NCBI RefSeq assembly: GCF_000020985.1
Contig: NC_011296.1
Span: 62,001-126,000, forward strand
Length of the DNA stretch: 64,000 bases
Reading direction: 5' to 3'
Source: Thermodesulfovibrio yellowstonii DSM 11347
GTDB lineage: Bacteria > Nitrospirota > Thermodesulfovibrionia > Thermodesulfovibrionales > Thermodesulfovibrionaceae
In this document: positions 45,777 through 53,443 of the stretch, piece after piece
Numbering within the stretch: the first letter of the stretch is position 1
Layout of the letters: each line of letters begins with the position of its first letter
Notes under the pieces: generated by a model
What the model saw: only the letters and a program-made list of their open reading frames with translations
What the model was told of the DNA's origin: nothing
Database searches by the model: none
Made by a program: the position numbers and the translations under genes

Positions 45777-46106
45777 ATTAATGTTCTAATAAAGCCTTTC
45801 TTCAGTGTTTGTCTTATTCTTTCTGCGGAAACATTTTTGTTTAATGCTTCTTTCATCATTCTCATAAATAGAGATAATAAAAAATAAACTACCAGATGAT
45901 TTATTATACTTTTCTCTGTATAATATTTTGACAATTTTTGTTTCTCTAAGGAACTGAAGAATTTTGAAAAAGCTGATATTAAAGGTTATTCTGAAGAAAC
46001 TGTAAAAAAGTGTTTACAATCATCTAAAATTTTCATTGATTTTTTCAAAGTTTCTTTTTCAAAATAGTTCCATGCTTTTGAAATTTTTCTGAGGAGGAGG
46101 TGAAGA
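45777..46106. pseudogene. Gene-poor stretch with two decayed coding fragments
   Basis: Two short stretches read like protein. On the + strand 45924-46067 is open without a start and contains YSEETVKKCLQSSKIFI, reminiscent of HEPN-domain tails. On the minus strand, from about 45868 leftward to a stop overlapping the fabF end, a 30-codon frame reads MRMMKEALNKNVSAERIRQ and ends in TLI. Neither is a complete gene. They suggest remains of a deleted gene or toxin-like pair; the family guess is weak. A TATAAT at 45919-45924 and the ribosome site of the next gene complete the interval. Confidence 0.35.
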
Positions 46107-46559
46107 TTGAACAGAAAGCTATTTATTCTAAGTATTTTGTGCCTTTGTTTTAGTTTCAGCGCATTAGATATCAGTGCACAGCTCCCGTTAAGTGTGACAC
46201 CACCAAAAGTTAATGAAAAAATTCAAAAACAAAAACAGCAAACATTGCAGCCACCAAAGGTTAATGAGAATATCCAGAAACAACAACCACTACCTACAGT
46301 AAAGAGTAGAGAATTCCGAAACATTGACTTTATCGCCATTCCTTATGTCCAAAGCAGAGAGTTTCCTAACATTGATTTTGAAGTAATCAAGCTTACAAAG
46401 AGTAGAGAGTTTGCTAATATTGATTTTACTGCTACGCCCCTAATGAAAAGCAGGGAGTTTTCTAACATTGACTTTGAAGCAATTAAGGTTACAAAGAGCA
46501 GAGAATTTACCAATATTGATTTTATTGGCGTAAAAATTCTTGACTCACAGAAAAAATAG
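46107..46559 (+). CDS. Secreted protein with five SREFxNIDF repeats
   Basis: A 150-residue protein of no family I recognise. It has a signal peptide (cleavage likely after DISA, residue ~24) and two copies of a PPKVNE-x-IQKQ segment (about 31-57). From Ser67 to Asp146 there are five repeats of exactly 16 residues, each beginning SREF-x-NIDF. The last seven residues alternate between an A type (IAIPYVQ, TATPLMK) and a B type (EVIKLTK, EAIKVTK). The DNA repeats cover 46305-46544 with a 48-bp period. The start is TTG, fixed by GGAGGAGG at 46092-46100. It heads a group of three small exported proteins. Confidence 0.8.
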   Translation: MNRKLFILSILCLCFSFSALDISAQLPLSVTPPKVNEKIQKQKQQTLQPPKVNENIQKQQPLPTVKSREFRNIDFIAIPYVQSREFPNIDFEVIKLTKSREFANIDFTATPLMKSREFSNIDFEAIKVTKSREFTNIDFIGVKILDSQKK

Positions 46560-46591: not shown

Positions 46592-47008
46592 ATGAAAGTA
46601 AATTTTAACAACGCTTTAGTAATCTCTTTAGTAATAACAGTTTTATTATCCTCAGCAAGTTTTGCCTTAGCCCATGACCCTTCAACTACAAATTATCCTC
46701 AACTTAGTCACATTCATGTTAAAGGAAAAATAACCGCCCCTGATGGTTCTGTTATTCGCCTTCCTGAAGGAGCAATGGTAAAAGCTATGTCAAGTGAAGC
46801 ATTTCGTTTTATACCAAGTGAGTGTCACGCGAATCAAAGCCCTGTTACTTCACCTATAAATCCAAATACAGGTGAGTATGAGTTGATATTTTATTTCAAG
46901 GCTGATTCCGAGAAATGTAGGGACGAATTTCAAAGAAGACCCTTAGATACATCAAAAATACAAATTATTAACGCTCCTGGATATGAATTTAAAAGAAAAA
47001 CAAATTAG
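46592..47008 (+). CDS. Small secreted protein of unknown function
   Basis: A 138-residue protein with a clear signal peptide (cleavage near SFALA-H, residue ~27). The mature part begins with a His-containing segment and a beta-sandwich-like stretch (HIHVKGKITAPDGSVIRLPEG), plus two cysteines (in SECHAN and SEKCRD) that could form a disulfide. GAGGAGG precedes the start. It lies between two other exported proteins in one apparent operon. Confidence 0.75.
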   Translation: MKVNFNNALVISLVITVLLSSASFALAHDPSTTNYPQLSHIHVKGKITAPDGSVIRLPEGAMVKAMSSEAFRFIPSECHANQSPVTSPINPNTGEYELIFYFKADSEKCRDEFQRRPLDTSKIQIINAPGYEFKRKTN

Positions 47009-47017
47009 GAGAATAAA

Positions 47018-47587
47018 ATGAAAAAATTATTTACTTATCTCAGCATTTTAAGTTTAATTTTATTTGTCTTCTCTTTAGCCTATGCAGAAACTCCGCCTCA
47101 ACCAAAAGACCAGCTTAAATCTCCTGTAGACAAAGATAAACTAAAACAGATTAAACCAATTCCTCCACCAAAATGTCCTGACCCAGCAGTTCAGAGAATT
47201 GATTTTACCGTTGTTTCAAAAACGAGTCAGTTCTCAGGAAAAGTTAGAATAACAGGTGTGGTAAAAAATATGGGAGTTGAGCCATACATTTCAGGACCAA
47301 ATCAGCAGGCTGTTTATCTCTATGAAATTCCTATGGGTGGAAAAGCTAACCTTGTAGCTACAAAAAAATTCCAGAATTTAAATCCCGGGCAGGAAATAAC
47401 AGTTAGCTATGAACGTAACTGGAATGCCTCCTCACCTTCTGAGGGCGAATTTCCACCATCTTACAGGGTAGTTATTGCCTATGACCCTGATATAAGAATG
47501 GATAGCAATCCTAAAAACGATGACTGCAACATGAATAACAATCAAAAAGAAAGAAGCGGGACAGAGATAAACGCCTTATTTAGATAG
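47018..47587 (+). CDS. Secreted protein with CARDB-like beta domain
   Basis: A 189-residue protein with a signal peptide ending near AYA-E (residue 23), a Pro/Lys-rich linker and a domain from about 50 to 175. Segments VRITGVVKNMG, NLNPGQEITVSYERNW and YRVVIAYDPD resemble CARDB-type adhesion domains, in which such strands end with an asparagine-rich closing motif. Two cysteines may pair. Function is unknown; it ends the three-gene group. Confidence 0.7.
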   Translation: MKKLFTYLSILSLILFVFSLAYAETPPQPKDQLKSPVDKDKLKQIKPIPPPKCPDPAVQRIDFTVVSKTSQFSGKVRITGVVKNMGVEPYISGPNQQAVYLYEIPMGGKANLVATKKFQNLNPGQEITVSYERNWNASSPSEGEFPPSYRVVIAYDPDIRMDSNPKNDDCNMNNNQKERSGTEINALFR

Positions 47588-47693: not shown

Positions 47694-47936
47694 CTATCCG
47701 CCTGCGATAGGAGGGAAAAGACTTATTTCATCACCATCTTTTATTTGAATAGAAAGGTTGGTAAGAATAACTCCATTAAGAACAACTATGAAGGGTTTTT
47801 TATTTAGGCTTAAAAAATCAATTAATTCATAAATAGTTAGAGGTTTCTCAGTTTCCACAATAAGGTCTTTTTCTTCATTTCTGGGGAAGTCTTTTTCTGA
47901 TTTTATACCACCAAAAAGTTTAACAACTACTTTCAT
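47694..47936 (-). CDS. MoaD/ThiS-like small protein ending in Gly-Gly
   Basis: An 80-residue ubiquitin-fold protein ending DEISLFPPIAGG, the Gly-Gly tail needed for thiocarboxylate formation. It follows the tungsten oxidoreductase, so it may serve pterin-cofactor synthesis for it, as MoaD-like partners of such enzymes are thought to do. I start at ATG 47936 (MKVVVKLFGG); an upstream in-frame start at 47969 would lie inside a strong hairpin. Confidence 0.85.
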   Translation of the reverse strand: MKVVVKLFGGIKSEKDFPRNEEKDLIVETEKPLTIYELIDFLSLNKKPFIVVLNGVILTNLSIQIKDGDEISLFPPIAGG

Positions 47937-47940
47937 TTTT

Positions 47941-47988
47941 AAAATTTGCTCAGGGATGGCAGTCACCAACCCTGAGCAGTAGAAATTT
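47941..47988 (-). promoter_or_regulatory. Intercistronic hairpin between AOR and MoaD-like genes
   Basis: GCTCAGGG (47948-47955) pairs perfectly with CCCTGAGC (47970-47977) around a 14-base loop. Outer arms AAAATTT (47941-47947) and AAATTTT (47982-47988... beginning at 47982) extend it across a small bulge. It sits exactly between the oxidoreductase stop and the small protein's start, so it may adjust expression or processing of the second gene. Confidence 0.5.
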
Positions 47989-49718
47989 TACCAGTTAAAT
48001 AGTTGGTCAAGCTCTTCATCTTTTACCTGAAATACTGTATTGTGTGGTGGAAGAGGCTCTTTATAGAAAAATCTTGGAAGTCTGTCATGCTCTTTTGTAA
48101 ATCCTGCACGAAGATTGAAATCTCTTTCAAATTTGAGAACCTTTTTCCCGTATTCAACTACATCTTTATCAGTCATATTCCAACCATAAAAGGCATTGAG
48201 CATATCAAGCAAAGCCTGATTAGTTTCTGGCTGGTCAAGTAGTGCAAAAGCTATAAAAAGACACATGCCTGTTGAATCTACAAAAGCTGTTGCAATCTGA
48301 AGATTACGTGAGAGCTCAACTTGTCCTTCAGGCTTAAGAGGATCAACAAATCCACCTGTTTTTAAAACATTAAGCGCAATTGAATATCCTGCAGTGTGAT
48401 CTGCGCCCATAGGGCTTGTTGCATATGTGACTCCGATTCCCTGAACTGCTCTTGGATCATAAGCTGGAAGTGCTTGCCCTTTCACAACAGGCACTCTTTC
48501 AACTCCGAAAGCTTTGCCAGTGAATGCTGCTCCATTTCCTATAATTCTTCCAAGATGTGTTCCTTTACCCACCTCATGTAGGAGATTTATTGCAGCATCA
48601 GCATCTCCCCACTTAAGCAATCCAGCTTCCATTGCAACTGCAATTGTTGCGCCCATCTCAATGGTGTCAACTCCATAGTTGTCACATAGAAAATCCATCA
48701 TAGCTATTTTATCTATGTCATCAACCCCGCAGTTTCCACCCAATGCCCATACTGTTTCGTATTCAGGTTGTTTAGTGAGATAATGTCCATCTTTGTCATG
48801 ATAAATTCCTGAACAACGTATAACACATCCCCTGTGGCATCCATGTGTAGGGTTTCCACCTCTTTGTTTTTCAAGCTCTGCTTCCACTTCACCACTGATT
48901 TTTCTTGCTCCAGCAAAACGTCCTTCTTTGAAGTTATAGGTAGGATATGCTCCAACTTCATTTATTATGTTTGTTAATACATTTGTTCCATAAGCAGGAA
49001 GTCCTTGTCCTGTTACAGGATGTTTCTGAAGTCCTGCAACAAATTTTTTATTTGCTTCTTTAAATGCTTCTACATTTTTTGGCTGTCTTGGTGTTGTTTC
49101 AGTATCATCAAGAACAATAACTTTTACTCCTTTTGAACCCATCACCGCACCAACCCCGCCTCTTCCTGCATGTCTTGTTGGTCTAAGTTCCATATCAGTC
49201 AATGCAACAGATGCACCTGACATTTTCATTTCACCTGCAGGACCAATACTTACACAGGCAATTTTTTCTCCGAACTCTTTTTTCATTTTTTCAATAAGAT
49301 CATAGTTTGGAAGCATTTTAAGAGAATTGTCTTTTTCAACCTTAACACCATTTTTGTTAATATAAATTTTATATGTATCATCTCCCTTAGGCTTTCCTTC
49401 AAGGACAATTGCTGCAATTCCGAGTCTTCCAAGAACCTGTCCTGCCTGTCCTCCTGAATTTGCTTCTTTAATCCCTCCTGTAAGAGGACTTTTGCATCCT
49501 ACAGAAGTTCTTCCAGACATTGCTGCAGCGCTTCCACCAAGAAGTCCGCAGGCTATTACAAGTTTATTGTCAGCACTCAATGGATGACAAAGGGGGTCAA
49601 CTTCTTTTGATATTATTGCTGAAGTAAGTGCTCTTCCACCAAGTCCTTCATATTGACCTAAATCCTCAAATTTTACTTCAGGTGCATCTTCACTCATGTT
49701 AATTCTTAAAATTTTCAT
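47988..49718 (-). CDS. Aldehyde ferredoxin oxidoreductase family, tungsten-type
   Basis: A 576-residue AOR-family protein. The N-terminal pterin-binding domain has RTSVGCKSPLTGGIKEAN and the block GRGGVGAVMGSKGVK. An Fe-S cysteine set CHRGCVIRC is near residues 295-303, with a later Cys in DSTGMCLF. AOR enzymes oxidise aldehydes to acids with ferredoxin using a tungsten bis-pterin cofactor; the actual substrate is unknown. AGGAGGTG precedes the start. It is flanked by a radical SAM protein and a MoaD-like protein on the same strand. Confidence 0.93.
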   Translation of the reverse strand: MKILRINMSEDAPEVKFEDLGQYEGLGGRALTSAIISKEVDPLCHPLSADNKLVIACGLLGGSAAAMSGRTSVGCKSPLTGGIKEANSGGQAGQVLGRLGIAAIVLEGKPKGDDTYKIYINKNGVKVEKDNSLKMLPNYDLIEKMKKEFGEKIACVSIGPAGEMKMSGASVALTDMELRPTRHAGRGGVGAVMGSKGVKVIVLDDTETTPRQPKNVEAFKEANKKFVAGLQKHPVTGQGLPAYGTNVLTNIINEVGAYPTYNFKEGRFAGARKISGEVEAELEKQRGGNPTHGCHRGCVIRCSGIYHDKDGHYLTKQPEYETVWALGGNCGVDDIDKIAMMDFLCDNYGVDTIEMGATIAVAMEAGLLKWGDADAAINLLHEVGKGTHLGRIIGNGAAFTGKAFGVERVPVVKGQALPAYDPRAVQGIGVTYATSPMGADHTAGYSIALNVLKTGGFVDPLKPEGQVELSRNLQIATAFVDSTGMCLFIAFALLDQPETNQALLDMLNAFYGWNMTDKDVVEYGKKVLKFERDFNLRAGFTKEHDRLPRFFYKEPLPPHNTVFQVKDEELDQLFNW

Positions 49719-49758
49719 AAAGCACCTCCTTTGATTGGACTAATAATTATTTAGTCAA

Positions 49759-53443
<3,685 letters not shown>

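Follow-up and report, generated by a model that had tools for sequence, protein, structure and literature searches.

Tandem SREFxNIDF units at the C-terminus of exported-looking proteins in Nitrospirota

Introduction

What might a small, apparently exported protein do with five tandem copies of a 16-residue unit that belongs to no described family? The question is raised by an ORF of the thermophilic sulfate reducer Thermodesulfovibrio yellowstonii DSM 11347, found in a 64,000-nucleotide stretch of contig NC_011296.1 (the window). A sequence-only reading had proposed a secreted protein with exact SREFxNIDF repeats and strictly alternating tails, under selection for a regular surface fold or fibre or for polymer binding. 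Here the array is compared across the phylum together with its gene neighbourhood, and the possible roles of the motif are weighed.

The repeat gene and its array

The features of the locus are given in Table 1. The hydrophobic leader of the repeat protein ends in ISA-Q and is likely a signal peptide, so the protein looks exported, as had been proposed. It is followed by a linker whose PPKVNE(K/N)IQKQ repeat differs in number among orthologs. The five units start at residues 67, 83, 99, 115, and 131, a spacing of exactly 16. The exact tandem SREFxNIDF units were confirmed, with S, R, E, F, N, I, D, and F identical in all five. In 20,000 shuffles of this protein, by comparison, the number of identical columns never exceeded one, against eight in the real array. 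Unit 5 is of a C-terminal type, IGVKILD, common to most orthologs.

Table 1. Features of the repeat locus, in window coordinates
Feature	Position	Strand	Basis
Shine-Dalgarno-like aggaggagg	46092..46100	+	6 bases 5' of the TTG start; read in the sequence
Repeat-protein gene, 150 aa, TTG start	46107..46559	+	ORF and orthologs in relatives
Likely Sec signal peptide MNRKLFILSILCLCFSFSALDISA	46107..46178	+	sequence pattern only; helix 3-15 in AlphaFold model
Pro/Gln-rich linker, PPKVNE(K/N)IQKQ twice	46179..46304	+	sequence
Unit 1 SREFRNIDFIAIPYVQ	46305..46352	+	unit alignment
Unit 2 SREFPNIDFEVIKLTK	46353..46400	+	unit alignment
Unit 3 SREFANIDFTATPLMK	46401..46448	+	unit alignment
Unit 4 SREFSNIDFEAIKVTK	46449..46496	+	unit alignment
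Unit 5 SREFTNIDFIGVKILD, then SQKK and stop	46497..46544	+	unit alignment
Next gene, 138-aa secreted beta-rich protein, no known family	46592..47008	+	comparison with relatives; model
Third gene, 189-aa secreted protein, CARDB-like pattern	47018..47587	+	sequence pattern

Tandem Repeats Finder reports periods of 48 and 96 bp at 46351-46524, the latter with an 87% match. The unit tails read, in order, IAIPYV, EVIKLT, TATPLM, EAIKVT, and IGVKIL. The alternation is therefore seen in the window, but it is the trace of an inherited two-unit (96-bp) duplication, common only to the window genome and its sister species G003, and does not recur in independent arrays. The arrays of G013, G014, G007, and G043 lack it, and as these other arrays are uniform a structural need for alternating tails was rejected. 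The strict 16-residue period is likewise exact in the window, but it is 18 in G043, and the G004 array tolerates one spacing of 23, with 7 residues inserted between two units.

Gaps of 32 and 9 bases separate the repeat gene from the 138-aa gene and this from the 189-aa gene; both neighbours carry leaders, and the third gene is probably co-transcribed with the repeat gene. On the 5' side, a 330-base gap (45777-46106) separates fabF from the repeat gene, with no RNA element found there in Rfam. Promoters and terminators at the locus occur as often as in shuffles, with no excess. Further downstream, 47694-51033 (-) encodes in a row a ThiS/MoaD-like protein, an aldehyde ferredoxin oxidoreductase-like protein, and a radical SAM/SPASM protein, the last a putative metalloenzyme maturase (TIGR04311, above cut-off).

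Relatives carrying the motif

A search of 60 relatives recovered orthologs in six other genomes of the genus. Several other members with nearly complete genomes have none, so the distribution is patchy. A profile of the array, run against 396 genomes of the phylum, led to two genomes of other families of the order, G038 and G043. The G038 match (E 1.5e-22) is not independent because its row was part of the profile, having first been seen at E 2.3e-4 in the search of relatives; the G043 match (E 2.9e-4) is independent. Convincing arrays were confined to nine of the 396 genomes, with 43 units in one order and three families, and the other weak matches examined were unrelated or out-of-frame ORFs. 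A pattern match in G087 was rejected as chance, as its frame has stops. Viral contigs and plasmids yielded no relative of the repeat protein, and the sole relative in a genome contig collection belongs to a Thermodesulfovibrio MAG.

The array is always C-terminal, with the protein ending 11–18 residues after the last R, and it follows three different N-terminal parts. Thermodesulfovibrio proteins carry the Pro/Gln linker. In the 428-aa protein of G038, an IPT-like domain and a lengthy Pro-rich region precede the end RHMREVSGFNFTGNMVTRSREVPNVDFAGSPVSYSREILKTDFIGSP. The 282-aa protein of G043 is a CARDB protein (PF07705, 2.3e-6 over its N-terminal part) with six 18-residue units GYREATGVDFTAISPTGT and the end ADFTAVPL. 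As the array is the sole part shared by proteins with these unrelated N-terminal parts, it is the conserved functional element. Unit number, which the sequence-only reading had proposed to compare between strains, differs among genomes: G008 has two, the window five, and G013 and G043 six, giving a range of 2–6. In G007 (L088:6734-7200) the sequence DIEFIEVRIFDLQK comes after the last unit but in a different frame, which indicates a frameshift near the end of the gene or an assembly error.

Across the 43 units the consensus is (K/R)-S-R-E-(F)-x-(N/G)-(I/V)-(D/N)-F-x-(A/G). R-E is kept in all 43; counting R as 0, position 6 is D or N, position 7 is F, L, or Y, and position 9 is A, G, or V. Side chains of this kind, an invariant R and E with D or N in every unit of a secreted protein, could mean direct binding of a small ligand, metal, or polysaccharide by each unit, with avidity provided by the array. 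Polymer binding was indeed among the first suggestions for this protein. However, no binding repeat was matched in Pfam, NCBIfam, or the PDB and the operon gives no pointer to a substrate, leaving direct ligand binding improbable.

Selection and unit turnover

In the window, the eight core residues have a pS of 0.96 and a pN of 0.00, and the tails 0.69 and 0.58. The G043 core is similar (pS 1.04, pN 0.04). With synonymous sites saturated in the core and the protein core unchanged, selection holds the core; the proposed selection is thus clear at this level. In G043 and G014 selection holds the rest of the unit outside the core as well, with a pS of 0.68 and a pN of 0.02 in G043, and 0.71 and 0.08 in G014. 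Units are nearly identical in DNA within G013 (0.93) and G007 (0.98), arrays that were homogenised recently. Together, these patterns indicate that units are re-amplified within species while purifying selection keeps the core, as judged from the unit alignments.

Structure prediction and family searches

AlphaFold, given seven sequences, returned a pLDDT of about 32 over the repeats and no fold from this shallow alignment, with faint four-residue strands at FxxI. The low pLDDT suits disorder of the repeat region, though it may only reflect the use of seven similar sequences. Within the units, [IV]-x-F-x-[AG] has the pattern of a beta-strand. A regular fold or fibre, as first proposed, is not established, given the pLDDT of about 32, the two units in G008, and the 7-residue insertion in G004. 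The 138-aa protein encoded next was modelled with a pLDDT of 79 as strands and short helices, and its fold has no PDB match better than E 0.1.

A Pfam scan of the repeat protein to E 10 gave only DUF4770 and DUF1797, both below cut-off. NCBIfam and PDB sequences gave no match, and PHROGs only weak, unnamed ones. The claim that no such family is known thus holds in these libraries. The 189-aa third protein has no Pfam match above cut-off, and neither the repeat, the small protein, nor the barrel described below matched above cut-offs in the libraries searched. A limited search of open papers found no literature on these genes, the motif, or the operon. Secreted arrays of short motifs are a known kind of protein; this motif and operon match no described family in the libraries searched.

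Two more specific identities were rejected. The unit could have mimicked the first strand of CARDB (RIDFTVVSKTSQF), but the unit profile scores near chance on the CARDB neighbours. When CARDB domains were tested, the array had no match and only the N-terminal part of the G043 protein did. The unit was also considered as the precursor of a radical-SAM cyclophane peptide (triceptide), but F-x-N is replaced by A-T-G in G043 and by V-P-N or I-L-K in G038. No radical SAM gene is evident beside the repeat in G003, G008, G013, G038, or G043, and the one 3 kb away in the window was dismissed as a triceptide maturase, being a putative metalloenzyme maturase beside an aldehyde ferredoxin oxidoreductase.

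Gene neighbourhood

In G003, G008, and G013 the genes run in the order Ig-like protein, outer-membrane barrel (641–661 aa, with F at its C-terminus), subtilase (PF00082, 1.3e-34), repeat protein, 138-aa-type protein, and CARDB-like protein. The G043 operon lies across two contigs, the break falling within the subtilase gene, and encodes an ECF-sigma-type protein, anti-sigma factor, barrel, subtilase, repeat protein, 172-aa protein, more CARDB proteins, and a beta-helix protein; the test for the ECF sigma domain as such used the G033 gene. G038 has the repeat protein, a 152-aa protein, the barrel, and an Ig protein without a protease. The barrel and subtilase were looked for in the window genome (G000) and one sister, G014, and neither was found.

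Of 176 genomes of the order, 16 have the barrel (three as weak matches); so does G428 of another family of the class, in which no repeat was found. The barrel co-occurs with the motif, being present in 7 of the 9 motif genomes and in 6 of the other 167 (Fisher P 6e-8, without correction for kinship). This barrel family (L084:1683-3608 and relatives, 641–680 aa) carries an N-terminal Ig/CopC-like domain, is patchy in the order, and has no described family and no relative with a solved structure.

The gene for a small secreted protein lies 3' of the repeat gene and is adjacent to it in all nine genomes. This adjacency holds in G000 and G014 without barrel or subtilase, and in G004 and G007 with those on other contigs. 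Homology of the small protein is good in eight genomes and weak in G043 (hhalign E 0.03). Its distances correlate with those of the units at r 0.80, hardly above the 0.71 of the CARDB protein, so specific co-evolution with the units is not indicated. In G000, G014, and G007 the repeat cassette lies at sites other than the operon near kdsA in G003, G008, and G013, and it seems to have moved, given these differing places.

In such operons the anti-sigma factors combine zf-HC2 with a Fervidolysin_NPro-like (subtilase-prodomain-like) domain. In two of them (L112:6597-7229, L114:2474-3103) this domain is C-terminal and the same operons encode a subtilase, suggesting a possible link between the protease and sigma control. 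The array might be a polyprotein that the subtilase cuts into repeated signal peptides, possibly read through the anti-sigma factor. The subtilase gene lies directly 5' of the repeat gene in G003, G008, G013, and G043, K or R flanks most units in the genus, and the Fervidolysin_NPro-like domain is also found, weakly, in the operon subtilase. Against such processing, the flanking K/R is not kept in G043, conservation falls on the core instead of an evident cut site, and the counterpart beside the array in G038 has no protease domain. Loss of the subtilase from the window genome, and its absence from G014, make a polyprotein a rather remote explanation.

A docking array or a fibre subunit

As the motif is kept at the end of otherwise different secreted proteins in nine bacteria, the motif itself probably serves for docking or fibre building within a cell-surface system not yet described. 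The best explanation, given a probability of roughly 40%, is that an exported protein carries short beta-strand docking motifs in a multivalent array. The protein would be exported and present a flexible C-terminal array of 2–6 short linear motifs, each of which would probably dock by adding a beta-strand to a beta-sheet exoprotein, Ig-like or other, from the operon. First among the candidate partners would be the small beta-rich protein encoded directly downstream. The array would thereby serve at the cell surface as a multivalent tether or scaffold, much like tandem beta-zipper repeats, whose mechanism is described in PMC4412574. The strand-like motif, flexible number, tolerated insertion, and Ig-like neighbours fit such an array, and the varying spacing (16 or 18, once 23) suits it as well.

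The closest analogues are the fibronectin-binding proteins FnBPA and SfbI (PMC4412574), which are likewise exported and present disordered-looking tandem short motifs with a beta-strand pattern in more than one copy. Unlike these, the repeat protein has no sequence relation to them, much shorter units, no host or fibronectin, a Gram-negative-type cell, and a partner that is only a candidate. The products of adjacent genes and the G043 protein's N-terminal part belong with the CARDB and Ig-like secreted proteins (PF07705), but the array itself is not a CARDB domain.

The main rival, although less likely, is a fibre subunit, in which the units would stack as an extracellular beta-solenoid or functional amyloid, exported by the barrel and processed by the subtilase as in Fap or curli. 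What keeps it a rival is the make-up of the complete operons in G003, G008, G013, and G043, where a barrel and a protease accompany the repeat protein and small exported proteins, as in the Fap ground plan (PMC3684753, PMC12822426). Variable unit number also has a parallel in curli, whose repeat number varies widely (PMC12822426). Counter to docking, whole units including spacers are constant within G014 and G043, as in-register stacking would demand, and the 16-residue spacing is fixed in two families, even between the degenerate units of G038; this suits regular stacking equally. However, the repeat gene persists in the window genome and in G014, where barrel and subtilase are missing, the array of G008 is limited to two units, and the AlphaFold model contains no solenoid. 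Asn and Gln abound in such amyloids (PMC12822426), whereas each 16-residue unit has about one N and almost no Q, and no curlin or Fap match was found in Pfam or NCBIfam. The repeat protein resembles FapC and CsgA (PMC3684753, PMC12822426) in its repeats within a small exported protein, its complete operons with barrel and protease, and its variable unit number, but differs in its 16–18-residue units poor in Q/N, a serine instead of a cysteine protease, and an array kept without the barrel.

Significance

More broadly, and speculatively, the operon could represent a surface-assembly system of Nitrospirota that has not been described before. It would build an extracellular scaffold or fibre with SREFxNIDF units as the assembly element, and would bring its own barrel and subtilase, joined in some genomes by a sigma/anti-sigma pair. 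The natural series of two, five, and six units, together with genomes with and without the barrel and subtilase, makes the question directly testable. If the motif is an assembly or docking element, it would offer a short, heat-tolerant peptide tag and a well-defined way into the question of how the cell surface is built in thermophilic sulfate reducers and their relatives.
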